A stretch of DNA of 64,000 nt from positions 1,786,001 through 1,850,000 of the forward strand of contig NZ_CP019609.1 in the NCBI RefSeq assembly GCF_001998885.1. The letters run 5' to 3'. Shown piece after piece: positions 3 to 17,410 of this stretch. Under the pieces are notes generated by a model. It was not told the DNA's origin. It saw nothing but the letters and a program-made list of their open reading frames with translations, and did not search any database. Each line of letters begins with the position of its first letter. Within the stretch, counting starts at the first letter, position 1. The stretch is from Vagococcus penaei (GTDB lineage Bacteria; Bacillota; Bacilli; Lactobacillales; Vagococcaceae). A program made the translations under genes and the position numbers.

Positions 3-266
3 AAATTAGGTGTATCACTTTCTTTGATACGAAAAAATATTTATAAAGAAAATGCTGTCATCTTTTTTATTCCCATGGGGATTGCTTTTTTCCTAATGTT
101 GTTTATGTTAAATTGGGTTTATATAATCATACCAGTAGTAGACATGACATTGACACGTAGTTTATGGGGAATATTAATTGTATTGTATTTTTTATTTTAT
201 GTTATGACATCTCACAGTGCATATCGTATGGTACAAGACAAGGTGAAAATAGATCATTATCAATGA
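3..266 (+). CDS. ABC-type permease, C-terminal fragment (5' end outside window)
   Basis: The frame is open from the left edge to a stop at 264-266, so this is the 3' end of a longer gene; the TTG at 24 is not a convincing start because nothing like a ribosome-binding site precedes it. The visible 87 residues have two hydrophobic stretches, around FFIPMGIAFFLMLF and GILIVLYFLFYVM, followed by a short charged tail. A final pair of membrane segments after a basic loop is what the ends of FtsX/BceB-type ABC permeases look like, but too little remains to assign the family firmly. It lies 13 bp before the YfhO gene and may be cotranscribed with it. Confidence 0.5.
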   Translation, partial: KLGVSLSLIRKNIYKENAVIFFIPMGIAFFLMLFMLNWVYIIIPVVDMTLTRSLWGILIVLYFLFYVMTSHSAYRMVQDKVKIDHYQ

Positions 267-279
267 AGGTGGTAGACAT

Positions 280-2865
280 ATGTTAGCAGTTAAAATTAGA
301 AATAAGTTGAAAGGGTATGGTTTAAGTTTGCTGTTACCATTTATTGTTCTAATGGTGGTATTTTTTATTTTAGATATTACTCCGTTTGGTAACCGTAATT
401 TACTTGTTAGTGATTTGGGAACTCAGTATTACCCCTTTTTAGCAGAATTCAAACGTTTTTTTTTAACAGGTGATTTTGGTAAAAGTTTATATTCTTTCTC
501 GAATGGTATTGGTGGAACAATGGAGGCGTTAAGTGCCTATTATTTAATGTCTCCTCTAAACTTTATTATTCTATTATTTTCAAACGATCAAATCCCTGTG
601 GCTATTTCATGCCTAATTATTTTAAAAATATCACTTATGAGTTTGACAATGTATACTTATTTAGATAAGCATTATAATCAAAGTGATTTATTGACTCAGA
701 TATTTGCATTATCTTATAGTTTATGTGGATTTGTTGTAATATACTTATATAATTTTATGTGGTTAGATGTCTTGATTATTTTTCCGATTTTAGTGTTGGG
801 AATTGAACGATTGTGGCATAGCCAACAGTACGGTGTATATGCTATAACTTTATTTTTGTCTATTGTAACTAATTATTATTTAGGATATATGATTTGTATT
901 TTTTCAGTGGGCTATAGTGTCTATTTATATTACTATAATCATAATACGTTTAAAAAAACGCATCGTATTCGGCAACTATTATCTGATTGGAAGCAATTCT
1001 TTTTAGTATCGTTATTAACTGGATTAGCGACAAGTTTTATGCTTATACCCGCATTATATGGAATGCTACAAACTGGGAAATCCAACTTTCATGTAGATGA
1101 TTTTCTTCTTGTACCTCGATTCGGTTTAGAGGCTCTATCACAGATGGCCGTAGGTACACTTAATTTTAATATTCGTTTGGATCATTTACCAATGATTTAT
1201 TCAGGAATATTAGTATGGTTATTGGCATTTGTATACTTCTTCTTACCTAATATCCCTAGGAAGAAGAAAGCAGCTATGATTATTTTATTACTATTTATTT
1301 ATTGTAGTTTCTTTTTTGAAATGTTTAATACAATATGGCACATGTTTCAGAGCCCGGCAGGGTTTCCTTATAGAAATTCATTTATCTTTAGCTTTGTCTT
1401 GATTAAATTGGCGTATGAAACAAGTCTTTATGCAAGATATGAGCAAAATAAAAATTTGATTAAACAAAAAATAATACTATCTGGATTAGTTTATTCATTT
1501 CTATTAAGTTTAGGGCAATTATTTTTAAATCTAGATTCTAATAAAGAATATCTAGTATCAAATCGTTATTATATTATATCATTAATTATTGTTTGGTTAT
1601 TTGTCTTTTTAATTATTGTTGGTTCAATGCGAATGAAGCGACAATTTCAATTTATTTTGTTGTTATGTGTTGCCCTTGAATTAGGGGGGAATTTATGGGT
1701 GTCATTAAAAGGTACCCCTTTTGGTAATCAACAAGAATACGCGGACATGTATAAGCAACAAAATGAGGTGATTCAATATATACTAGGGCAAACGAAAACA
1801 ATTACCCGATTGAATCATCGTCTACCTGAACAGAATAATGGTTACCAAGAAGTGATGAATGGTTATAATAATCCTATGCTATTTGGGTATCCTGGAGTAT
1901 CCAGCTACACATCCACTTTAAACGCAACAACGCAAGATGCACTCGTTGATTTGGGACTTTATGCTAAAAATGATCGACGTTTTTCATATGTTGATGAATC
2001 TCAGTTAGCCAATTTATTACTCAATGTAGCGTACACAATAGTGCCCAATGATATGGAACAAAAGAAATTGTTAGAGAAAAAGTATGATATGCGTGTGTAT
2101 GAAAATATAGAAGCAGTCGGAATGGGCTTTGTTACTGACGATTCTTTGGAGGACTTAGCATTTGAAAAAAATAAGGTACTAACTAATCAAGAGAATATTA
2201 TGCAGTTAATTTATCCTAAAAATACACCTTTCTTTCATGAATTAACAGAAATCAAAGAATCTATCAAACAAGATTCTGTCGTAATTAAAGGTCGAACAAC
2301 GCATGAAGGGATTGTCTATCTTTATTTTCCACATGCTGCTTGGAAAAATATTAATGACTTTTCAATCAATGGTGAGCGGTTTAAATCATTTCAATATATT
2401 TCAACCAATCAATTGTTTAATTTAGGGCATTATAGAGCCAATGAAGATATCGAGTTAACCTTTAAAACAACTGAGCCAAGTCAGATTGCTAATATGCAGT
2501 TAAGTACTTTAGATGAGAGTGATTTTAACCAGCTAGTATCGAAGGTGAAGCAACAGAAATTAGAATTAACGCAAGCAGAAAATGGCAGACTGTCTGGTGA
2601 AATTGATGTAGCAAAAGGTCAACAACTTTTATATCTAGCGATTCCTTATGATGATAACTGGCAAATTACAGTTGATCAAGAACAGGTCGCTCCAATCAGA
2701 GTACTAGGCGATTTTATGGGAGTTCCCTTAGGTAAAGGTAGTCATCAAATTGAGATGATGTATGTATCAAAACCACTAATTGTGGGGAGTATAATTTCTG
2801 GGATAATTATTATCGGTAGCTTGGGAAGTATCCTTTATCAAAAGCGAAAAAAACGCGCAAAATAA
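280..2865 (+). CDS. YfhO family membrane protein
   Basis: An 861-residue polytopic membrane protein. The N-terminal two thirds carry about a dozen hydrophobic segments with the loop motif VSDLGTQYYPF after the first, as in the YfhO family. A soluble extracellular region follows (about residues 500-830), and a single C-terminal membrane helix ends in RKKRAK. YfhO-type proteins are GT-C-like glycosyltransferases implicated in decorating lipoteichoic or wall teichoic acid with sugars; the acceptor here is unknown. The ATG at 280 is preceded by AAGGTGG at a suitable distance. Family assignment rests on length, topology and the N-terminal motif. Confidence 0.8.
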   Translation: MLAVKIRNKLKGYGLSLLLPFIVLMVVFFILDITPFGNRNLLVSDLGTQYYPFLAEFKRFFLTGDFGKSLYSFSNGIGGTMEALSAYYLMSPLNFIILLFSNDQIPVAISCLIILKISLMSLTMYTYLDKHYNQSDLLTQIFALSYSLCGFVVIYLYNFMWLDVLIIFPILVLGIERLWHSQQYGVYAITLFLSIVTNYYLGYMICIFSVGYSVYLYYYNHNTFKKTHRIRQLLSDWKQFFLVSLLTGLATSFMLIPALYGMLQTGKSNFHVDDFLLVPRFGLEALSQMAVGTLNFNIRLDHLPMIYSGILVWLLAFVYFFLPNIPRKKKAAMIILLLFIYCSFFFEMFNTIWHMFQSPAGFPYRNSFIFSFVLIKLAYETSLYARYEQNKNLIKQKIILSGLVYSFLLSLGQLFLNLDSNKEYLVSNRYYIISLIIVWLFVFLIIVGSMRMKRQFQFILLLCVALELGGNLWVSLKGTPFGNQQEYADMYKQQNEVIQYILGQTKTITRLNHRLPEQNNGYQEVMNGYNNPMLFGYPGVSSYTSTLNATTQDALVDLGLYAKNDRRFSYVDESQLANLLLNVAYTIVPNDMEQKKLLEKKYDMRVYENIEAVGMGFVTDDSLEDLAFEKNKVLTNQENIMQLIYPKNTPFFHELTEIKESIKQDSVVIKGRTTHEGIVYLYFPHAAWKNINDFSINGERFKSFQYISTNQLFNLGHYRANEDIELTFKTTEPSQIANMQLSTLDESDFNQLVSKVKQQKLELTQAENGRLSGEIDVAKGQQLLYLAIPYDDNWQITVDQEQVAPIRVLGDFMGVPLGKGSHQIEMMYVSKPLIVGSIISGIIIIGSLGSILYQKRKKRAK

Positions 2866-2923
2866 TAAGAAATAATGGTATGATAGATTCAATCAATAAT
2901 AAAATTAACGAGGTGGAAAAACC

Positions 2924-4009
2924 ATGTTACAAGAAAAAGATGAGTTATTTTTAAAAGAATTAACCGACGCAAACGGTGTACCTGGAAATGAAGACCAAGT
3001 ACGAGCGATTTTTAAAAAATATGCTGAACCATATGCAGATAAAATTGTATATGATGGTTTAGGCGGAATTAATGCTCGGCACATTGGAGATAAAGAAGGA
3101 CCCAAAGTTTTAATCGCAGGTCATATGGATGAAGTTGGTTTTATGGTCACTAAAATTACAGAAAAAGGATTTATTGAATTTCAAACCTTAGGTGGTTGGT
3201 GGGGTCAAGTCATGCTTGCCCAACAAGTGACAATCACAACGGGTTCGGGAAAAGAAATCCATGGAGTTATTGGTTCAAAACCACCTCATGTTTTATCGCA
3301 AGAGGCACGAAAACAACCCTATGATATTAAGGATATGTTCATTGATATTGGTGCAACAAGTGCTGAGGAAGCATCAGCTTGGGGAATTAAACCTGGAGAT
3401 ATGGTAACACCATTTATCAATTACCAACGCTTAAATGGTTCAAAATATCTTTTAGCGAAAGCGTGGGATAATCGAATTGGGACAGCTGTTTCACTAAAAG
3501 TACTTGAAAACTTAGCTAAAGATGGACATCCCAATATTTTATTTGCTGGTAGTAATGTCCAAGAAGAAGTTGGCTTAAGAGGCGCTCGTACAAGTACACA
3601 TTTAGTGAATCCAGATATTGCTTTAGCTCTTGATACAGGTACAGCTGGTGATACACCGGGAATGACACCGAAAGAAGCAGATTCTGTTTTAGGAAAAGGC
3701 CCACAAATCATTGTTTTCGATGCGTCAATGATTCCGCATAAAAAATTACGTGATTTTGTGATTAGCGTTGCTGAAGAGTTAGAGATTCCTTTCCAATATA
3801 CTGTTATTACTGGTGGGGGAACAGACGCAGGTATGCAACACATTACACGTGATGGAGTACCAGCATTAGCAATTACAGTTGCGACACGTTATTTACATTC
3901 ACATACATCGATTATCCATGAAGATGATTATCTGAATACAGTCAAATTAGTAACTGAAGTTGTAAAACGCTTAGATGCTGATAAAGTGGCTGAATTAAAA
4001 AATTATTAA
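2924..4009 (+). CDS. pepA: M42 family glutamyl aminopeptidase
   Basis: A 361-residue cytoplasmic metallopeptidase of family M42, which removes N-terminal Glu/Asp (and sometimes other residues) from peptides in lactic acid bacteria. Metal-binding and catalytic motifs are in the expected order: AGHMDEVG with H67 and D69, then [18 protein letters not shown] with its catalytic glutamate pair, [12 protein letters not shown], and the final His in RYLHSHTSI. The length is typical. The start ATG at 2924 follows GAGGTGG. It appears to be monocistronic, with a short hairpin after the stop codon. The alternative is a broader-specificity M42 enzyme of the YtoP type. Confidence 0.88.
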
Positions 4010-4024
4010 TAGTTAATTAATCAT

Positions 4025-4061
4025 GGCTCGATTGTCTAATTTTTTGTAGAAACATCGAGCC
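4025..4061 (+). terminator. possible hairpin terminator after pepA
   Basis: GGCTCGAT at 4025-4032 pairs with ATCGAGCC at 4054-4061. There is no clear T run after the stem, so it may be an mRNA 3' stabiliser rather than an intrinsic terminator. Confidence 0.35.
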
Positions 4062-4228
4062 TATTGCTTAGTTGACAGTACATCTTAAAAAGACAAAAAT
4101 GTGTGTCAGCTAGCTTTAAAAAATAAAAATGCTTGTTTTTTGCTCGTTTTAAGTGGATTTAATTGTGAATTTTACGCAATCAAAGTAAAGTAGAGGTAGA
4201 GATAGTTTCAGAAAGGAGTAGACATCAA

Positions 4229-4969
4229 ATGAATGTGACAGTATTAGGTTATTGGGGAGGCTTTCCCTATAAAAATGATGGTACCACATCTTACTTAATT
4301 GAATCAGACGGTTTTTCTTTGTTACTTGATGCTGGTAGTAGTACATTAATTCAATTAGAAAAAGTTTTAGATCCGTCCACACTAGATGCTGTGATAATTA
4401 GTCATTATCATCACGACCATATTGCTGACTTGGGGGTATTACAATATTACCGACAGTTAATGCCAAAAACAGCACTCCCAGAATTACCGATTTACGGACA
4501 TACGCTAGATGATTGGCACTTCTCACAACTAACGATGCCTGGTATTTCAAAAGGTATTGGTTATCATGAAGATGACACGTTAGAAGTTGGTCCTTTCAGT
4601 ATTACATTTATTAAGACGGTTCATCCAGTTGTCTGCTACGCGATGCGTATTGTTGAAAAAGCAACAGGTAAAATCTTTGTCTTTACTGGTGATACTGGCT
4701 ACTTTGACGAACTATCAGCTTTTTGCCAAGATGCCGATTTATTGATTACTGATACCTACTTTTTAGAAGGTCATGAGCATCATCCAGCGCATTTAACTTC
4801 GAAAGAAACTGGACTGATTGCAAAAGAAGCGAACGTGAAACACTTGGTTTTAAGCCATTTACGACAAGACATAGATTTAGAATTATTAAAGCAACAAACA
4901 TGCGATTATTTGGCTAATGAGCAAGTGGACGTCCAATTAGCTAAGACGCATTTAAAAATTTCATTATAG
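4229..4969 (+). CDS. MBL fold metallohydrolase (YhfI-like)
   Basis: A 246-residue metallo-beta-lactamase-fold hydrolase related to ribonuclease Z. The zinc motif HxHxDH is present as H59, H61, D63 and H64, and further ligands are likely in HPVVCYAMR, FTGDTGYFD and the late LSHLRQD. The substrate is unknown; Bacillus YhfI is the usual comparison. The ATG at 4229 follows GAAAGGAG. The next gene, lplA, starts 11 bp after its stop, so the two are almost certainly cotranscribed, an arrangement also seen for yhfI-lplJ in Bacillus. Confidence 0.8.
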   Translation: MNVTVLGYWGGFPYKNDGTTSYLIESDGFSLLLDAGSSTLIQLEKVLDPSTLDAVIISHYHHDHIADLGVLQYYRQLMPKTALPELPIYGHTLDDWHFSQLTMPGISKGIGYHEDDTLEVGPFSITFIKTVHPVVCYAMRIVEKATGKIFVFTGDTGYFDELSAFCQDADLLITDTYFLEGHEHHPAHLTSKETGLIAKEANVKHLVLSHLRQDIDLELLKQQTCDYLANEQVDVQLAKTHLKISL

Positions 4970-4980
4970 GAGTGACCCAA

Positions 4981-5988
4981 ATGATTTTTGTATCCAACGA
5001 AGGAATAACTGATCCACGAATTAATTTAGCTATTGAAACTTATTTAGTTCAAGAGATGCCAGTTGATGAACCGATTTTATTATTTTATATTAACGAACCA
5101 TCGATTATTATCGGGCGTAATCAAAATACGATTGAAGAAATTAATACGGAATATGTCGAAAAACAAGGTATTCATGTAGTCCGCCGTTTAAGTGGTGGAG
5201 GAGCTGTGTATCATGATGAAGGTAATTTGAATTTTAGTTTTATTATGCCAGATGATGGTGAATCTTTCCGTAATTTTGGTAAAGTCACTCAACCAATTAT
5301 TGATGCATTGCATGATATGGGTGTTGATGGTGCAGAATTAAAAGGTCGTAATGATTTAGTAATTGACGACAAAAAATTCTCTGGAAATGCGATGTATGCA
5401 ACAAACGGTCGCATGTTTGCACATGGTACGTTGATGTTTGATAGTGACATTAATGAAGTTGTGAATGCTTTAAAGGTTCGTAAAGATAAGATTGAATCAA
5501 AAGGGATTAAGTCAATTCGCTCACGTGTAACAAATATTCGTCCTTATTTGGCTGATGCGCATCAAAATATGTCAACAGAAGACTTTAGGGAAGAAATTCT
5601 TTTAAAAATTTTTAATACAACGGATATGAATGACGTTAATGTTTATAAATTAACAGAGCATGATTGGGAACGAATCAATGCCATTAGTGATAAATTATAT
5701 CGTAATTGGGACTGGAATTATGGGAAATCACCTGAGTTTGATTTAGTCCGTCGCAAACGATTCCCAATTGGTTCGATTGAAGCCAAAATGAACGTATCAC
5801 AAGGTCTGATTCAAGAAATTCGTATTTTTGGGGATTTCTTTGGAATGGGCGAAATTGCCGATATCGAGATGATCTTAACTGGTATTAGGTATGATAAGCA
5901 AGCTATTACTGAAGCTGTCGATACGATTGATGTTAAAACATATTTTGGAAATATTGAAAAAGAAGATTTAGTTGATTTACTTTATTAA
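4981..5988 (+). CDS. lplA: lipoate-protein ligase A
   Basis: A 335-residue ligase that attaches free lipoate to the E2 and GcvH subunits of 2-oxoacid dehydrogenases and the glycine cleavage system. The BPL/LplA motifs are visible: RRLSGGGAVYHD, NLNFSF, and KKFSGNAMYATNG with the catalytic lysine. The C-terminal accessory domain (after about residue 250) is present. I place the start at the ATG at 4981 rather than the in-frame GTG at 4972. AGGAG at 4968-4972 is then 8 nt upstream, and the resulting N-terminus MIFVSNEGITDPRIN matches the family. It is the second gene of an operon with the MBL hydrolase. Confidence 0.9.
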   Translation: MIFVSNEGITDPRINLAIETYLVQEMPVDEPILLFYINEPSIIIGRNQNTIEEINTEYVEKQGIHVVRRLSGGGAVYHDEGNLNFSFIMPDDGESFRNFGKVTQPIIDALHDMGVDGAELKGRNDLVIDDKKFSGNAMYATNGRMFAHGTLMFDSDINEVVNALKVRKDKIESKGIKSIRSRVTNIRPYLADAHQNMSTEDFREEILLKIFNTTDMNDVNVYKLTEHDWERINAISDKLYRNWDWNYGKSPEFDLVRRKRFPIGSIEAKMNVSQGLIQEIRIFGDFFGMGEIADIEMILTGIRYDKQAITEAVDTIDVKTYFGNIEKEDLVDLLY

Positions 5989-5998
5989 GCCAATTTAA

Positions 5999-6052
5999 AA
6001 AAATACGCCATAAACGTTTCTTTTTTAGAAACATCTATGGCGTATTTTTTTA
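5999..6052. terminator. bidirectional terminator between lplA and trpS
   Basis: AAATACGCCATA at 6001-6012 pairs with TATGGCGTATTT at 6036-6047. A smaller GTTTC/GAAAC helix sits inside. Flanking T runs on one strand and A runs on the other allow it to serve the two convergent genes. Confidence 0.8.
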
Positions 6053-6090
6053 TTGTGTATCAGTAGTAGTTAGCTATCTGTACTATTTTA

Positions 6091-7110
<1,020 letters not shown>

Positions 7111-7441
7111 TTATTACCATCCTTTTTAGTTACTAGTATCTATTATACTAGAAATAATACGGGAAAACACTAATCTGATGCAGATTTTAAATTTATATAG
7201 TAATACACAAATTTAAACTGTTATAGTGCGATAGACCTTTTTTAATTAATGTAAAATTTTAGTTAAGAATAGTCGTAACTGTTTTCAAACCTTGTAAAAT
7301 CAACGTTCATTTATGTTCGTTTATTTAAAAATACTCTTAAAAAAGTGTAGTAATTATGAAGTTGTTATAGTATAATTAGTAACAGATAAGGGACAGCAAA
7401 AAATTCCTGTTTATCTAGTATATCTGAAAGGGAGTGATTGT
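7111..7441. other. divergent intergenic region trpS / spx
   Basis: A 331-bp AT-rich gap with divergent promoters and no gene. On the minus strand a TATAAT lies at 7147-7142, a likely -10 for trpS with a poor -35. On the plus strand TATAAT at 7371-7376 is the best -10 for spx, also with a weak -35; an activator or extended contacts would be needed. No T-box specifier or anti-terminator sequence was found. Confidence 0.5.
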
Positions 7442-9423: not shown

Positions 9424-12400
9424 ATGATAAAAGATATAAGTGTTAATTTAGGCTTCGATATAGGCATCGCTTCTGTTGGATGGGCAGTATTAAATAATGC
9501 TAATGGCAAAATTTTAGAATCAGGTGTTAGTATTTTTCCCAGTGCATCTGCAGAAAGAAATGCTGAACGTCGTAGTTTTCGACAATCACGACGTTTAGTT
9601 CGCCGTAGAAATGTGCGTTTGCATGATATGAAAGACTTATTAGAAAAAGCAGGTTTCCCTTATCCGACTAAACAGCACATTTATCCAAATCCTTATGAGC
9701 TACGTGTTAAAGGTTTAACGGAACAACTAACAAAAGAAGAATTAGCATTGGCGCTCTATCATCTAGTAAAACGTCGTGGAATCAGCTATGACTTGAAAGA
9801 TGTCGAAGATGAAACAGGAAAAAATAGTAGTGCTTATCAGGAAAGTTTACAAAAAAATCAAACACTCTTAAAACGCTTGACACCAGGAGAAATTCAATTA
9901 AACCGTTTGAAAAATGAAGGGAAAGTCCGAGGTCAGATTGTGACTGAAGATGAAGGAACATTACTGAATGTATTTCCAACTGCTGATTATCGAGATGAAG
10001 CGATGACCATCTTATCGCAACAACAAGCATTTTATCCAAACATAACAGATGAATTTATCAAGCAAGTCAGTGAGATAATCACACGTAAACGTGAATATTT
10101 TAAAGGTCCGGGTTCACTTAAGTCACCAACTGATTATGGTATTTATAAAAAAGATGGTACTGTTCTTGATAATTTATTTGAAATTCTAATCGGTAAGGAT
10201 AAGATTTTTCCAGACGAATATCGTGCGGCAAGTAATTCCTATACAGCACAGCTATTCAATTTGTTAAATGATTTAAATAATTTACGAATTGATACGACAG
10301 AGGATGGCAAGCTGACAACGGAGCATAAAGAGGAAATTATTCATTATTTGAAAACAACAGACAAGAAAAAGATTAATATGTTAGCTTTAATTAGTCAGGT
10401 AACAGGTGCAGAACAAACACACATCAAAGGGTTTCGGATTGACCGTGACGATAAACCAGAGTGGCATTCGCTTGCGATTTATCGGAAAATTTGTCGCAAT
10501 TTTGCTGAATTAGGAATCGATGTTGCTACTTGGCCAACGACATTACTCGATGATTTAGGACGTATTTTGACTTTAAACACAGAAAATGGGGAAATTCGTC
10601 GGGCTTTGACAACAGAAAAATTTAAAGAAAAGTATCCATTTTTAACAGAATCATTGGTTGATACCATGATTCAAAATAAACAATGGTTTCATACAAGTAG
10701 TAATCAAAAATGGCACAGTTTTTCATTGAAAACTATGTCACTGTTAATTCCTGAGATGTTAGTCACTTCAAAGGAACAAATGACGCTACTCTATGATTTA
10801 GGCCTAATTAAGGAAAAAGATAATATTTATGAAACAGAAACACAAATTAATTTGCCACATATCCTAGCTGATTTGTATAACCCAGTGGTAAGAAAATCAG
10901 TCAAACAAACTATGAAGATTTTTAATGCGTTATATCAGAAATACCCTAATATTCAATATATTGCGATTGAAATGCCTCGTGATACTAATGAAGAAGATGA
11001 GAAAAAACAAATTAAAGAATTTCAAAAGAAAAATGAACAAGAAAAAGATAAGGCCTATCTAGAATTTTTATCATTATCAGGTGTGAGTGAGACTGAGTTA
11101 AATAACAAAATATATAAAAATAAAAAACTTCGAACAATCATGCGTTTATGGTACCAACAACAAGGAATTTGCCCATACTCTGGTAAGCCAATGCCAGCTG
11201 AAGACATCTTGAGTACACCTAATAATTATGAAATAGATCATATTATTCCTATTTCTGTCTCTTTTGATGATAGCATGAATAATAAAGTATTATGTTTTGC
11301 TAACATGAATCAAGAAAAAGGAAAAAGTACACCTTATGAAATGATGCAAAATGGTCATGGGCAATCATTCGCTAGTCTAAAAGCAATGGTGGCTAAAAAT
11401 AAGCGGATGGATAATACTAAAAAGAAAAACTTACTCTTTACTGAGAAGTTAAGTGATATTGATGTTCGCAAGCGGTTTATTGCTCGTAATTTAGTTGACA
11501 CACGATATGCGTCACGTGTGGTACTAAATGAACTACAACAATTTGTTAAAGGGAATCAGTTGGATACTAAGGTGACGGTTGTTCGTGGAAAGTTTACTAG
11601 TGTTTTGCGTAAACGCTGGAGTATTAATAAGACACGTGATACGCATCATCATCATGCAATTGATGCGGCAGTTATAGCAGTCACACCAACGCTACGCATT
11701 TGGAAGAAAGAAAATGCAGTAATTATTCCTAAACAAGTTGGCGAGCACCTCATTGATGAACCAACGGGTGAGATTTTGGATAAAGAAACGTTTGAAAGAG
11801 AAGCCTACACGCCACCATTCACTCATTTTTTAGAAGATGTTCGTCAACTAGCACCAACTATCAAGTTTACGCATCAAGTTGATAAAAAAATGAACCGTAA
11901 AATTAGTGACGCGACTATTTATTCCACACGTCAGGTACAACTGGGTAAGGACAAACAACCAGCTGACTATGTATTGGATAAAATTAAAGATATCTATAGC
12001 GTTGATGGCTATAAAAAATTTGTTGAGACTTATAAAAAAGACAAAGCAAAATTTATGATGTATCGAATTGATCCTAAGACGTTTGAATTATTAGAACAAA
12101 TTGTTGCGACATATCCGGATTATGAGGAAGTCAGTTTACCTAATGGCAAAGTTAAGCGTCAGGAGGTCAGTCCGTTTGAACTGTATCGCCGACAAAATGG
12201 ATGGGTGAAAAAATATTCTAAGAAGCAAAATGGTCCCGCAGTCAAACAACTAAAATACTACAATAAGAAGTTGGGTTCTAAGATTGATATTACGCCGAAA
12301 AATGTGACGAAAGGTAAGAAAGTCGTGTTGCAATCACTCTCACCATGGCGGACAGATATTTACTATAATGACGTAACATCAGAATATGAAATCATGGGAA

Positions 12401-12822
12401 TTAAATATTCAGATTTAACATTTGGAAAATGCGGTCAGTATGGCATTAAGCGTGAACGATACGAAGAGATTAAGACAGATGAAAAAGTATCTGCTGAATC
12501 ATGTTTCATGTTTTCACTTTATCGCAATGACCGTATCAAAGTAATTGATACAGTAAATGATGAAACAGTCGAATTACTATTTGGGTCACGAACGCTACCA
12601 AATCAAAAAGGTTATGTGGAGTTAAAACCAATAGATAAAGCCAAGTTTGATTCAAAAGAAGTTGTGTCTTTTTATGGTTCGGTTACTCCTAACGGACAAT
12701 TTATCAAGCGATTTCTTAAAAAAAATTACTTGCTTTACAAAATCAACACTGATGTACTAGGCAATCCTTTTTATGTTAAAAAAGAAGGAGAAAATCCACG
12801 AGATATTATTGACAATAATTAA
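9424..12822 (+). CDS. cas9: CRISPR-associated endonuclease Cas9, type II-A
   Basis: An 1132-residue Cas9, the RNA-guided DNA nuclease of the locus. RuvC-I is at the N-terminus (LGFDIGIASVGW, catalytic D12), followed by the arginine-rich bridge helix (RRSFRQSRRLVRRRN, about residues 57-72). RuvC-II is YIAIEMPRD with E516, the HNH nuclease has YEIDHIIPIS with D605 and H606, and RuvC-III is HHHHAIDAA with H744 and D747. All catalytic positions are intact. Length, tracrRNA and repeat all match the compact S. thermophilus CRISPR1 (St1Cas9) group rather than the 1370-residue SpCas9 group. The ATG at 9424 has GGAGG upstream. It is the first gene of cas9-cas1-cas2-csn2. Confidence 0.96.
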   Translation: MIKDISVNLGFDIGIASVGWAVLNNANGKILESGVSIFPSASAERNAERRSFRQSRRLVRRRNVRLHDMKDLLEKAGFPYPTKQHIYPNPYELRVKGLTEQLTKEELALALYHLVKRRGISYDLKDVEDETGKNSSAYQESLQKNQTLLKRLTPGEIQLNRLKNEGKVRGQIVTEDEGTLLNVFPTADYRDEAMTILSQQQAFYPNITDEFIKQVSEIITRKREYFKGPGSLKSPTDYGIYKKDGTVLDNLFEILIGKDKIFPDEYRAASNSYTAQLFNLLNDLNNLRIDTTEDGKLTTEHKEEIIHYLKTTDKKKINMLALISQVTGAEQTHIKGFRIDRDDKPEWHSLAIYRKICRNFAELGIDVATWPTTLLDDLGRILTLNTENGEIRRALTTEKFKEKYPFLTESLVDTMIQNKQWFHTSSNQKWHSFSLKTMSLLIPEMLVTSKEQMTLLYDLGLIKEKDNIYETETQINLPHILADLYNPVVRKSVKQTMKIFNALYQKYPNIQYIAIEMPRDTNEEDEKKQIKEFQKKNEQEKDKAYLEFLSLSGVSETELNNKIYKNKKLRTIMRLWYQQQGICPYSGKPMPAEDILSTPNNYEIDHIIPISVSFDDSMNNKVLCFANMNQEKGKSTPYEMMQNGHGQSFASLKAMVAKNKRMDNTKKKNLLFTEKLSDIDVRKRFIARNLVDTRYASRVVLNELQQFVKGNQLDTKVTVVRGKFTSVLRKRWSINKTRDTHHHHAIDAAVIAVTPTLRIWKKENAVIIPKQVGEHLIDEPTGEILDKETFEREAYTPPFTHFLEDVRQLAPTIKFTHQVDKKMNRKISDATIYSTRQVQLGKDKQPADYVLDKIKDIYSVDGYKKFVETYKKDKAKFMMYRIDPKTFELLEQIVATYPDYEEVSLPNGKVKRQEVSPFELYRRQNGWVKKYSKKQNGPAVKQLKYYNKKLGSKIDITPKNVTKGKKVVLQSLSPWRTDIYYNDVTSEYEIMGIKYSDLTFGKCGQYGIKRERYEEIKTDEKVSAESCFMFSLYRNDRIKVIDTVNDETVELLFGSRTLPNQKGYVELKPIDKAKFDSKEVVSFYGSVTPNGQFIKRFLKKNYLLYKINTDVLGNPFYVKKEGENPRDIIDNN

Positions 12823-12838
12823 GTATATGTAGTAATAT
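12809..12838 (+). promoter_or_regulatory. probable tracrRNA promoter inside the end of cas9
   Basis: TTGACA at 12809-12814, a perfect -35, is followed 18 bp later by TAATAT at 12833-12838. Transcription would begin around 12844, at the 5' side of the tracrRNA hairpin. The -35 overlaps the last codons of cas9. Confidence 0.6.
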
Positions 12839-12841
12839 ATA

Positions 12842-12938
12842 GGTACGAAGGACGCTTCGTACCGTTACTAGATCTTTAAGAATCTACAAAAATAAGGCTT
12901 TATGCCGAATTTCCCATTCCTTTTGGAGTGGGTTTTTA
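12842..12938 (+). ncRNA. tracrRNA
   Basis: The anti-repeat lies at about 12860-12880 (ACCGTTACTAGATC then TTTAAG) and is complementary to the 3' half of the CRISPR repeat with one mismatch. It is followed by the nexus AAGGCTTTATGCCG at 12893-12906, nearly identical to the nexus of the S. thermophilus CRISPR1 tracrRNA, and by a terminator hairpin CCCATTCC/GGAGTGGG (12913-12932) with a T run. It sits between cas9 and cas1 on the same strand, as in CRISPR1 systems. A perfect 9-bp hairpin (GGTACGAAG/CTTCGTACC, 12842-12863) forms its 5' end and overlaps the start of the anti-repeat. Exact ends are inferred. Confidence 0.88.
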
Positions 12939-12961
12939 TTTTATCTAGGGAGGTGTAAGCG

Positions 12962-13867
12962 TTGACATGGCGTGTGGTACATGTAAAAGATAGCCAAAGT
13001 ATGAAGTTGAAGCTTGATAATTTAGAAATTATGAAAGGAGGACATTGTTATTTATTACCTTTAGCAGATATTAGTATGCTAGTTTTAGAAGGCAATATGA
13101 CGGTGACGACTAATATTTTATCAGCACTATCCAAATATAATATTGTAACTGTTATCTGTGATCAAAAATACCTGCCAACAGGGTTACTACTGAATTATGG
13201 AGGCTATCATCGTTCAGCAAAAAGAGCCTTAAGCCAAACTTTGTGGACTAGGGAATTGAAAGCAGTTATTTGGAAAGAAATTGTTGGTCAAAAAATGTTA
13301 AATCAAATCGTGTTTGCACAAACTAAAGACGTCACACAAGAGCGTTTGGATTTAATGACTGATTTGTATAGTGAGCTCCAGATTGGTGATATAACGAATC
13401 GTGAAGGTCATGTGGCAAAGGTTTATTTTAAATCATTGTATGGGTCAGAATTTACACGGGAAACGGACTGTTTTGAAAATGCGGCAATGAATTATGGCTA
13501 TGCCATTTTACGTGCAGCAATGGCACGTTTAGTAGTGGGACAAGGATTACTAACGATGTTGGGGGTTTTTCATTGTAATGAGTACAATGCTTATAATTTA
13601 GTTGATGATTTAATGGAGCCGTTTCGGCCAGTGATGGACTATTGGATTGATTATAAATTACTGAGTCAATGTGAGTTTCTCACGTATGATGCTCGGCTGA
13701 CGTTAATTGATTTCTTGAATCAGCCCATGTTTTACAAAACAACCAAAAGTACTGTAGACCAAGTGATGCAAAAATATGTATCTAGCTTTGTTAAGGCGAT
13801 GACTGAGGAGAATCCGGCATTATTACATCAAATTAATCTGCAGGATTTTGTGGAGGCGAGGAAATGA
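12962..13867 (+). CDS. cas1: CRISPR-associated endonuclease Cas1
   Basis: A 301-residue Cas1, the integrase subunit that inserts new spacers as a complex with Cas2. The N-terminus MTWRVVHVKDSQ is characteristic of type II-A Cas1, and the C-terminal helical domain contains the expected metal-binding segment (ENAAMNYGYAILRA and later HCNEYNAYNLVDD). The start is a TTG at 12962 preceded by GGGAGGTG; no better ATG fits the family's N-terminus. It overlaps cas2 by 4 bp (ATGA), indicating translational coupling. Confidence 0.93.
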   Translation: MTWRVVHVKDSQSMKLKLDNLEIMKGGHCYLLPLADISMLVLEGNMTVTTNILSALSKYNIVTVICDQKYLPTGLLLNYGGYHRSAKRALSQTLWTRELKAVIWKEIVGQKMLNQIVFAQTKDVTQERLDLMTDLYSELQIGDITNREGHVAKVYFKSLYGSEFTRETDCFENAAMNYGYAILRAAMARLVVGQGLLTMLGVFHCNEYNAYNLVDDLMEPFRPVMDYWIDYKLLSQCEFLTYDARLTLIDFLNQPMFYKTTKSTVDQVMQKYVSSFVKAMTEENPALLHQINLQDFVEARK

Positions 13868-14187
13868 GGTATCAACAAATGCGAATTTTATGTATGTTTG
13901 ATTTACCAAGTGACACAAAAGTAGATCAACGAAATTATCGATTATTTCGCAAGGAATTATTAGCGAATGGCTTTATTATGTTACAATATTCGATTTATTA
14001 CCGTATTGTTCCCAATCGTTCAGCAGGTAAAAAATATGAAAGTATCCTAAAACGGATGGTTCCGCCAGCTGGAGAAGTTCGTTTACTGTACGTTAGTGAG
14101 AAACAATTTAATGACATGCTTTTTCTAGTTGGTCAAAAAAGTCATCAAGAAGAAATTATTGGTGCACAAAAGTTGGTGATTATCTAA
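13864..14187 (+). CDS. cas2: CRISPR-associated protein Cas2
   Basis: A 107-residue Cas2, the dimeric ferredoxin-fold subunit that bridges Cas1 dimers during spacer acquisition. It begins MRYQQMRILCMFDLP with the conserved aspartate of the first strand, and includes FMLQYSIYYRI and VRLLYVSEKQF. It overlaps the end of cas1 by 4 bp and the start of csn2 by 1 bp, so the adaptation genes form one tightly coupled unit. Confidence 0.93.
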   Translation: MRYQQMRILCMFDLPSDTKVDQRNYRLFRKELLANGFIMLQYSIYYRIVPNRSAGKKYESILKRMVPPAGEVRLLYVSEKQFNDMLFLVGQKSHQEEIIGAQKLVII

Positions 14188-15221
14188 TGACGATTACTTT
14201 TGAATATGAGAATAGTCACTACCTTGAGTTGACCGAACACCCGATTAACTATCTTTATGGCTCCAATCATGATGTTAAGTGGAAGTTGTATCGAGGTCTA
14301 AAACGCTTTTACCAAGGGAAAAATCTTTCTTTACTTGAAGAAACGGTCTATGGTGATGATGGGATTGATATTCGGTTAGATGGTCAGACGTTAAAAAGTA
14401 AAGATATCTTGTTTCATTTTTTAGATTGTCGTGAAAGTTTTATTACTGAGTTTAAACTACTTAAAACAAGTTTGATTTATAATTATTTACAGAATTGTGC
14501 TTTGGATTTTGATGTGACGCGTCTTTTGGATCAAGTGAACAATCAATTACTCGCATTAGAAATTAAGCTACAACGACTTACTCGTGATATCCTGACTAAT
14601 GTTTCCCCAACTATTAAGCCATTAACTTATCCGGAATTGATGAAGTCTTATATGGGTTTGGAAACAATGGAAGATGGGGTGAATTATCCTGTTGAAATGA
14701 TTGATTTGAGTGCTTTGATTGACGACTACTGTCACTTACTTGAGCAAAATATTGAGCGTACAACTAAACAAACATGGCTTTTTATCAGTCAACCAACAGC
14801 TTTTTTACGCCAGGATTTACTGGCAAAATTATTACTAAACCTGACTAAAGTCAACCAAAAAACAGAATTACTGACAGTCTTTATTTTGAGTGATTCGTAT
14901 TGTCCCTTAAATTATAGGCGTAATGATATTGAAGCGACAACATTGATTTATAAAGAGTATCAGCAATTACCAGATTTTACAACATTAAGGGCGTCTATAG
15001 AACGTCACTATCCAGATACCTTGACGTTAACAGATGATGAACTAATTACTAGTTTGTATCGCTTAATGCCGTATATTGGTGTGATGAACTCAGAACAAGT
15101 TTATTTGAAAGACCAAGAATTACTTCTATTAAATGTCTTACATAAACTATTAGGTATTGACATAATAGTTAAGAGCCCAAAAAAAGTATTGACTAAACTA
15201 GAAGAAGCGTATTTAATGTAG
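14187..15221 (+). CDS. csn2: type II-A CRISPR-associated protein Csn2, long (St-type) form
   Basis: A 344-residue Csn2, the ring-forming, DNA-end-binding adaptation protein that defines type II-A. The length and N-terminus (MTITFEYENSHYLELTEHP) match the long Csn2 form linked to S. thermophilus CRISPR1 rather than the 220-residue form of S. pyogenes. The middle is rich in predicted helices. The ATG at 14187 overlaps the cas2 stop. Only 38 bp separate its stop from the first repeat, so the array promoter probably lies within its last codons. Confidence 0.88.
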   Translation: MTITFEYENSHYLELTEHPINYLYGSNHDVKWKLYRGLKRFYQGKNLSLLEETVYGDDGIDIRLDGQTLKSKDILFHFLDCRESFITEFKLLKTSLIYNYLQNCALDFDVTRLLDQVNNQLLALEIKLQRLTRDILTNVSPTIKPLTYPELMKSYMGLETMEDGVNYPVEMIDLSALIDDYCHLLEQNIERTTKQTWLFISQPTAFLRQDLLAKLLLNLTKVNQKTELLTVFILSDSYCPLNYRRNDIEATTLIYKEYQQLPDFTTLRASIERHYPDTLTLTDDELITSLYRLMPYIGVMNSEQVYLKDQELLLLNVLHKLLGIDIIVKSPKKVLTKLEEAYLM

Positions 15222-15259
15222 GTAGGTATAAAAATTTTATTTGGAGACGTTCATTTGAG
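15189..15259 (+). promoter_or_regulatory. CRISPR leader with array promoter and ATTTGAG anchor
   Basis: ATTTGAG at 15253-15259 touches the first repeat; this is the leader-anchoring sequence known to direct polarized spacer insertion in type II-A systems. A candidate array promoter is TTGACT at 15189-15194 with TTTAAT at 15212-15217, a 17-bp gap, located in the end of csn2. The non-coding leader itself is only 38 bp. The promoter assignment is an inference; the anchor is seen directly. Confidence 0.7.
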
Positions 15260-15428
15260 GTTTTTGTACTCTTAAAGATTTAGTAACGGTAAAACTATAT
15301 CACAAGATTTTAAAAAAATAGTTGTGTTTTTGTACTCTTAAAGATTTAGTAACGGTAAAACTAGATAGTCGCATAGTTTTAGATGATGATTAGTTTTTGT
15401 ACTCTTAAAGATTTAGTAACGGTAAAAC

Positions 15429-15591
15429 CAAAATAGTTATCCATTATTTTTTATCAAGAGTTTTTGTACTCTTAAAGATTTAGTAACGGTAAAACGTTTG
15501 CATTATCGACGAAGCACCACTCAATGTTTTTGTACTCTTAAAGATTTAGTAACGGTAAAACATCACTTCTACCCAACTTTTGCCGTCCCAT
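15429..15591 (+). repeat. three-spacer block, first copy
   Basis: A 163-bp stretch (three spacers with two repeats between them) that is identical to 15761-15923. Two other spacers lie between the copies. It reflects recombination between repeats. Confidence 0.95.
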
Positions 15592-15760
15592 GTTTTTGTA
15601 CTCTTAAAGATTTAGTAACGGTAAAACACTGATTTACCACTACCACAACCTGACACGGTTTTTGTACTCTTAAAGATTTAGTAACGGTAAAACCAAAAAT
15701 CAGTTAGACGACAGAAAAGGTTGTGTTTTTGTACTCTTAAAGATTTAGTAACGGTAAAAC

Positions 15761-15923
15761 CAAAATAGTTATCCATTATTTTTTATCAAGAGTTTTTGTA
15801 CTCTTAAAGATTTAGTAACGGTAAAACGTTTGCATTATCGACGAAGCACCACTCAATGTTTTTGTACTCTTAAAGATTTAGTAACGGTAAAACATCACTT
15901 CTACCCAACTTTTGCCGTCCCAT
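15761..15923 (+). repeat. three-spacer block, second copy
   Basis: Identical to 15429-15591, offset by 332 bp, with the 31-bp and 30-bp spacers in the same order. Confidence 0.95.
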
Positions 15924-17410
15924 GTTTTTGTACTCTTAAAGATTTAGTAACGGTAAAACCTACGGCGGTGCAATCGGCACGTACGGGCGGTTTTTGTACT
16001 CTTAAAGATTTAGTAACGGTAAAACAAAATTATCTCAATTAAAAAATGTTTTGGCGTTTTTGTACTCTTAAAGATTTAGTAACGGTAAAACAACATGTTT
16101 ATCGTTTATGATGACACCATTGTTTTTGTACTCTTAAAGATTTAGTAACGGTAAAACTAAAGTTGTTATCCTTCTGCTCTTCGCTACGTTTTTGTACTCT
16201 TAAAGATTTAGTAACGGTAAAACGTTTTTTAAGACAATCCTATCCAGAGCTGTGTTTTTGTACTCTTAAAGATTTAGTAACGGTAAAACAAAATTATCTC
16301 AATTAAAAAATGTTTTGGCGTTTTTGTACTCTTAAAGATTTAGTAACGGTAAAACAGTGAAGCTGATACTTGTTTTCGTTCATCAGTTTTTGTACTCTTA
16401 AAGATTTAGTAACGGTAAAACATCTCAACGAGGAACGTATTGGGCTGTTCGGTTTTTGTACTCTTAAAGATTTAGTAACGGTAAAACATTCCGATTGAAA
16501 TTGTTGACGGAATTACAGTTTTTGTACTCTTAAAGATTTAGTAACGGTAAAACCAGAAGGTGAGCGTGTTCTTTTCATCACTGGTTTTTGTACTCTTAAA
16601 GATTTAGTAACGGTAAAACCAATACCTTTTATTCCGCTTGTAAATCCATGTTTTTGTACTCTTAAAGATTTAGTAACGGTAAAACTAAAATTTTTTCTTT
16701 GATTAAGACTTTTTCGTTTTTGTACTCTTAAAGATTTAGTAACGGTAAAACTTGGTTTTTTTGACAAACGTCACATCGTCTGTTTTTGTACTCTTAAAGA
16801 TTTAGTAACGGTAAAACTTCTACACTTTTAAAAAAAGAGCAAACATGGTTTTTGTACTCTTAAAGATTTAGTAACGGTAAAACTTTTCTTTTGGCTCTGG
16901 AATAAGGAGTTTGGTTTTTGTACTCTTAAAGATTTAGTAACGGTAAAACTTCTACACTTTTAAAAAAAGAGCAAACATGGTTTTTGTACTCTTAAAGATT
17001 TAGTAACGGTAAAACTATGCCTCCTGTTTTTTAGAAATTCGGTAAGTTTTTGTACTCTTAAAGATTTAGTAACGGTAAAACAAACGTCAAAGCGCGGGTA
17101 ATAAATTAGGTACAGGTTTTTGTACTCTTAAAGATTTAGTAACGGTAAAACTAAAAGTATTGAAACCATTTATTGATAAAGGTTTTTGTACTCTTAAAGA
17201 TTTAGTAACGGTAAAACTGATTAATTTTTCTCAAAATGACAATAGCAGTTTTTGTACTCTTAAAGATTTAGTAACGGTAAAACCAACTCATTTACTGCCC
17301 AGCCACGTCCACGGTTTTTGTACTCTTAAAGATTTAGTAACGGTAAAACATTAAAGAATTGTTAGTTGTGCAACTTAACATTAACGCATTTTTGCATTGA
17401 AATCACACTT

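Follow-up and report, generated by a model that had tools for sequence, protein, structure and literature searches.

We analysed a 64,000-nucleotide (nt) stretch of Vagococcus penaei DNA (contig NZ_CP019609.1, positions 1,786,001 to 1,850,000 of the forward strand), hereafter the window, which carries a compact type II-A CRISPR-Cas system (clustered regularly interspaced short palindromic repeats and associated genes) of the Streptococcus thermophilus CRISPR1 kind. Our subject is a hairpin with a GACG loop at the predicted 5′ end of its trans-activating CRISPR RNA (tracrRNA), which comparison with relatives establishes as a conserved RNA structure and whose loop recurs on a second hairpin just before the array. 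The features of the locus are listed below, in positions of the window.

9424..12822, + strand: cas9 (1132 amino acids), compact type II-A
12809..12838, + strand: putative tracrRNA promoter, TTGACA at 12809-12814 and TAATAT at 12833-12838, spacer 18; 10 of 12 consensus positions match, and the call is a consensus match only
12842..12863, + strand: 9-base-pair (bp) inverted repeat GGTACGAAG-GACG-CTTCGTACC, loop GACG at 12851-12854
12845..12860, + strand: 6-bp hairpin expected in the tracrRNA, given an inferred start at 12845 (7 nt after the −10 box)
12860..12892, + strand: tracrRNA anti-repeat, first bases TACC, complementary to the array repeat
12894..12907, + strand: nexus AAGGCTTTATGCCG
12913..12942, + strand: terminator, hairpin 12913-12932 and T-rich tail
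12962..13867, + strand: cas1
13864..14187, + strand: cas2
14187..15221, + strand: csn2, St type (PF16813)
15225..15270, + strand: predicted leader/first-repeat hairpin, with the GACG hairpin as its cap (predicted fold, −16.4 kcal/mol)
15242..15253, + strand: leader hairpin TGGA-GACG-TTCA, loop at 15246-15249
15260..17349, + strand: CRISPR array, 32 repeats GTTTTTGTACTCTTAAAGATTTAGTAACGGTAAAAC

The tracrRNA gene sits between cas9 and cas1, in the order cas9-tracrRNA-cas1-cas2-csn2-array, and the solved Cas9 nearest to that of the window is S. thermophilus Cas9 1. The traits of St1-like II-A tracrRNAs are present: an anti-repeat, a nexus, a terminator and the adjoining cas9, cas1, cas2 and csn2 genes. 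Expression and processing with RNase III also mark the type II-A tracrRNA class. An Rfam scan of the window returned two transfer RNAs and nothing else.

The perfect 9-bp, GACG-loop hairpin at 12842-12863 had been noted in a preliminary description of the sequence and was recovered exactly, as was a promoter-like sequence belonging to the tracrRNA itself (TTGACA/TAATAT, spacer 18). Its 3′ arm does share TACC with the anti-repeat, which starts at 12860 and overlaps the inverted repeat by 4 nt. The same description placed the hairpin at the start of transcription, and this held in part: the hairpin lies at the predicted 5′ end, just after the −10 box, but promoter geometry puts the start at about 12845, the usual 7 nt after that box, rather than at 12842. 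With this expected start, the RNA probably lacks the three outermost pairs (12842-12844 with 12861-12863), so that the pairs overlapping the anti-repeat would be absent from it. Taken alone, the window proves little, because a perfect hairpin of such size arises about once per 64 kilobases: perfect hairpins with 4-nt loops and stems of 9 bp or more numbered one in the window and 3, 0 and 1 in three mononucleotide shuffles. The significance of the hairpin comes from its comparison with relatives.

A GACG hairpin conserved across compact type II-A tracrRNAs

Relatives of the window Cas9 were collected from 15 named loci and further genomes, the loci were fetched, and their arrays and anti-repeats were located. 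The resulting set comprises the 79 compact II-A loci, the window among them, whose tracrRNA could be located; L092, with no located tracrRNA, stands outside it, and L167-L192, which are the same genomes as L193-L218, were left out of the counts. A search of the 150 nt preceding the nexus for GACG loops on stems of at least 5 bp found a 5′ hairpin in 77 of the 79 loci, the two others being L074, whose hairpin has a different loop, and L207. Hosts with the hairpin include Enterococcus canis, E. florum, E. diestrammenae, Listeria floridensis, Ligilactobacillus salitolerans, Companilactobacillus species and a Clostridioides metagenome-assembled genome, and six loci carry two consecutive GACG hairpins. 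In a 101-row Cas9 tree, built quickly with FastTree and showing some long branches, GACG rows account for nearly all of two clades, the main one and a Bacillus-like one; all 12 tree rows of the latter have the tracrRNA hairpin, and its neighbour L156 has the loop ATAT.

Across 33 distinct tracrRNA stems, in rows chosen by GACG and at least 5 bp and hence preselected to pair (the misses, L074 and L207, are counted in the 79), 98.5% of cells were paired vs 52.0% in shuffles, and 94 cells carried double changes vs 28.3 in shuffles. When the partner arm was slid along, pairing fell to 36-45%. The loop was compared with strong tetraloop hairpins at large: GACG is the loop in 32/39 of those in the 140 nt before the nexus (56 loci, 813,520 nt) and in 6/825 elsewhere in the same loci, a background that rules out a general enrichment of GACG hairpins. 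These six lie in the leader (L042, L072, L076), inside csn2 (L082, L091) and elsewhere (L087); the one in L087, near 11570, is a 7-bp hairpin ahead of a GGAGG sequence and belongs to neither tracrRNA nor leader. Altogether, it is well supported by these alignments that the hairpin is an RNA structure kept by compensatory changes, with a nearly invariant GACG loop.

An inverted repeat whose dyad symmetry spans a start site could also be a DNA operator, bound there by a regulator. However, the half-sites vary while pairing stays, the central GACG is asymmetric, and in 48/77 rows (manual count) complementarity in the DNA stops 7 or 8 nt past the −10 box. The operator, which we hold to be highly improbable, was rejected because pairing is maintained through half-site changes.

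Relative to the predicted start (best −10 box), the loop begins 6 or 7 nt downstream in 58/68 distinct rows, and 56 of these 68 rows have no unpaired 5′ base. Such a stem edge at the predicted start fits selection on an RNA starting there. We define as "5′ GACG hairpin of compact II-A tracrRNAs" a GACG loop carried by a covarying stem whose first base is the predicted +1, and the window hairpin falls into this class. The rows without an unpaired 5′ base, together with the 5′ hairpins with assorted loops of Staphylococcus-like relatives, would also suit plain 5′-end protection, in which a blunt hairpin shields the primary tracrRNA from 5′-end-dependent decay while the loop itself contributes nothing. 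This would explain the position, but not a near-invariant loop on variable stems, and it leaves unexplained the GACG hairpins of the leader and of csn2 described below; as a full account we consider it unlikely. Protection of a primary tracrRNA, which the preliminary description had offered, is possible as one of the hairpin's roles.

Several loci show further structures around the tracrRNA. In Companilactobacillus (L041-L052) a second element, a palindrome of varying length (GAACGTTC, GAATATTC, GAACATGTTC, GTGCGCAC), lies between the GACG hairpin and the anti-repeat. L086 has two tracrRNA-like copies, with loops GACA (the cas9-side copy, which is also contained in L016) and GACG, and array segments of 32 and 33 repeats. 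L044 has tandem cas9 genes (199-3552 and 3802-7188), and a lone repeat-like piece lies between or behind these genes. In Staphylococcus-like tracrRNAs and that of L156 (L147-L154, L156, L157 and L159), a 5′ hairpin adjoins the anti-repeat, with non-GACG, often self-complementary loops (TAGCT, ATAT; by eye); in L166, whose tracrRNA is II-C-like, a 7-bp hairpin with loop GGGG stands immediately 5′ of the anti-repeat. Most Staphylococcus-like leaders end in GCTAGAG, and a match of this end to the tracrRNA loops (TAGCT and others) fitted some loci and failed in others, so that it was dropped (both by eye). No such hairpin was seen by eye in Spy-like flanks, where some anti-repeat assignments are weak. 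A Cas9 search in plasmids gave no match, and neither did one exact Streptococcus tracrRNA pattern searched in viral contigs.

Pairing with the crRNA and the cas9 promoter

The preliminary description had the hairpin competing with CRISPR RNA (crRNA) pairing, a proposal that drew on the 4-nt overlap of inverted repeat and anti-repeat. The predicted duplex energy in the window is −33.3 kcal/mol for a tracrRNA from 12845 and −26.6 kcal/mol for one from 12842; an RNA beginning at 12842 would thus forfeit 6.7 kcal/mol, and mild competition with the crRNA would exist if the RNA really began there. However, the expected start is 12845, and co-folds of each tracrRNA from its expected start with its own repeat (63 of the 79 loci, the Bacillus-like ones represented by L104 only) form hairpin and repeat duplex together, the hairpin being retained in 63/63. 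The gap between them is 0 in 41 co-folds, 22-32 nt in 18, and 1, 3, 10 and 10 nt in the other four; the 18 distant cases also speak against competition, which we now regard as very unlikely.

An analogue of tracr-L had been suggested as well, in which a longer tracrRNA would fold as a natural single guide and lead Cas9 to its own promoter. The known tracr-L is a long isoform from an upstream promoter, whose upstream part is a copy of the repeat that base-pairs with the anti-repeat. A fold of the read-through RNA 12800-12938, made for the window only, does partly pair an upstream TAGTAAT with the anti-repeat. But the longest match between the tracrRNA upstream region and the cas9 promoter region is 8 nt, inside the range of 6-13 given by 60 shuffles, whereas tracr-L, the natural single-guide tracrRNA of S. 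pyogenes, needs a match of about 11 nt to the cas promoter according to the excerpt of PMC11417352. Moreover, the conserved hairpin begins where the short RNA itself is predicted to start. Control of the cas9 promoter is the least probable of all the readings considered here.

GACG hairpins upstream of the array and within csn2

In the window (15242-15253) and in many relatives, GACG also stands between complementary arms just 5′ of the first repeat. Neither this leader hairpin nor the invariance of the tracrRNA loop figured in the preliminary description. GACG occurs in 30 of 61 distinct 46-nt leaders, whereas 500 shuffles averaged 2.75 and never exceeded 9; among leader 4-mers having three or more G/C it is the most frequent (the next one reaches 11). 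Over 13 distinct leader sites, 88.5% of cells were paired vs 48.9% when shuffled, with 23 vs 8.8 double-change cells; this alignment took distinct GACG sites within 40 nt, paired or unpaired, minus an extra unpaired site of L040. With leaders identical over 60 nt or not ending in YTTGAG dropped, 62 main-clade leader rows remained, and by manual count 47 of them hold a GACG flanked by arms that pair, either at the leader end or in csn2; the 47 include L044 and L080, which pair over 2 bp only, and exclude the distant site of L079, which lies in a promoter-like sequence. The two loci whose tracrRNA has no GACG hairpin, L074 and L207, also have none in the leader, although these are two cases only.

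In Companilactobacillus, Ligilactobacillus salitolerans and the two-hairpin group, the leader-end site is mostly absent and GACG is found inside the 3′ end of csn2 instead, 73-94 nt before the array (148 in L051). A scan of csn2 covered 23 loci, 18 with a C-terminal ETS and five without (L047, L050, L084, L085, L086). The ETS codons read GAG ACG TCN in 18/18 of these genes, whereas 1.26 would be expected from each gene's codon use, and GACG plus an equally long stem would be expected in 0.27 genes. Eleven distinct csn2 stems had 87.3% of cells paired vs 70.9% shuffled and 10 vs 4.5 double-change cells; two of their five pairs never vary. All 18 genes, from loci within L041-L052 and L081-L091, also contain TGnTAnTAT, an extended −10-like sequence, 38 or 50 nt upstream of the GAG codon. 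Since it precedes the csn2 GACG, the pre-crRNA may start there, and the motif is perhaps a pre-crRNA promoter.

The identical loop in two RNAs, on varied stems, raises the prospect that the GACG hairpins of tracrRNA and leader are binding sites for one protein (this Cas9 subfamily, Csn2 or some RNA-binding protein of the host), which would unite the two RNAs or control their processing. The loop follows the Cas9 tree, as such a protein site would predict. However, no candidate protein was found, and the loops differ in Staphylococcus-like systems, whose gene order is similar. We hold this protein site to be doubtful, and rank it as a close rival to the loop-loop docking set out below.

Some features of the arrays and leaders stand apart from these hairpins. 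The window array contains an exact duplicate of a 235-nt repeat/spacer block (15393-15627 = 15725-15959), and two more of its spacers are present twice (by eye). In the Bacillus-like loci L097-L104 a TATAAT stands about 9 nt 5′ of the first repeat. Their repeat contains TTGGTATAA, and each repeat might carry a promoter-like sequence.

Possible roles and known systems

For partner and function we infer, tentatively and as the reading we lean to, a 5′-terminal cap hairpin with a specifically recognised loop, perhaps through GACG-GACG kissing of tracrRNA with pre-crRNA. The hairpin would cap the primary tracrRNA against 5′-end-dependent decay, and its GACG loop would serve as a recognition element. 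Two GACG loops kiss by two G-C pairs, and the self-complementary CG could allow contacts between tracrRNA and pre-crRNA leader, between two tracrRNAs, or both; as judged from sequence, both the tracrRNA and the leader present the GACG loop on a stable stem, as a kissing hairpin should. In this kissing model the tracrRNA hairpin would dock on the GACG hairpin of the leader end or of the csn2 3′ end and so place the tracrRNA near the newest spacer, at the array's leader end. We find loop-loop docking the most attractive mechanism because the same loop is present on two RNAs that must anneal. The fuller proposal is possible but less probable than the general one: that compact II-A tracrRNA and pre-crRNA meet by matched GACG kissing loops, with annealing starting at the array front and the newest spacer processed first.

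A number of observations weigh against this interpretation. The shuffle and codon controls ignore shared descent, and so look stronger than they are. DNA complementarity extends farther upstream than 7 or 8 nt after the −10 box in 25/77 rows and begins later in 4; the window is among the 25, its pairing reaching 3 bp upstream of the predicted start. Staphylococcus-like rows, a separate group on the Cas9 tree, have 5′ hairpins with non-GACG loops (by eye), and a two-pair loop contact is weak. Twelve streptococci (L079, L194, L196, L197, L203, L204, L208, L211, L213, L214, L216, L220) have the tracrRNA GACG hairpin without a leader GACG, whereas 20 others have the leader GACG, and the Bacillus-like leaders read (L097-L104 in one reading, five loci in another) showed none with pairing arms. 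Because these streptococci and the Bacillus-like loci lack the leader hairpin, the tracrRNA hairpin must also act without a leader partner, and leader docking cannot be its only role.

If functional, the loop would offer a small mutable handle on the encounter of tracrRNA and pre-crRNA, on the preference for the newest spacer and on the keeping of primary tracrRNA. The Cas9 type of S. thermophilus CRISPR1 is well studied, yet in the Creative Commons-licensed literature searched we found no mention of a near-invariant tracrRNA 5′ hairpin or of its match before the array or in csn2; nor is a 5′ hairpin mentioned in the passage of PMC6070500 on the S. thermophilus CRISPR1-type tracrRNA.

Among known systems, type II-A leader/first-repeat hairpins block extraneous crRNA and favour the first spacer, and a hairpin of this kind was reportedly described by Liao et al. 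in 2022. The window leader RNA is likewise predicted to pair with the first repeat (−16.4 kcal/mol). It differs in the GACG cap that matches the tracrRNA loop, which goes unmentioned in the excerpts of PMC12080349 and PMC13187072 that describe the II-A leader/first-repeat hairpin. With tracr-L, as excerpted, the window shares a tracrRNA with an additional 5′ structure and a possible control role; unlike in tracr-L, its hairpin is part of the short form and is no copy of the repeat, and no cas9 promoter match was found. TracrRNAs of the SaCas9 type (Staphylococcus-like) also have a 5′ hairpin beside the anti-repeat (by eye), but with non-GACG loops, and in the loci read they are not encoded between cas9 and cas1. 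GACG tetraloops take part in retroviral RNA dimer contacts, according to the part of PMC516450 consulted; there the four-base loop is identical and RNA-RNA contacts are proposed as here, whereas the RNAs and organisms are unrelated and dimerisation in our case is only proposed. The St1Cas9-type tracrRNA is closest in kind, with the gene order, anti-repeat, nexus and terminator of the window, and the Streptococcus relatives L078 and L079, whose repeat we take to be the S. thermophilus CRISPR1 repeat, share the window's 5′ GACG hairpin. The matching hairpins in tracrRNA and CRISPR transcript hint that guide making in systems of this type includes an unrecognised docking or recognition step.
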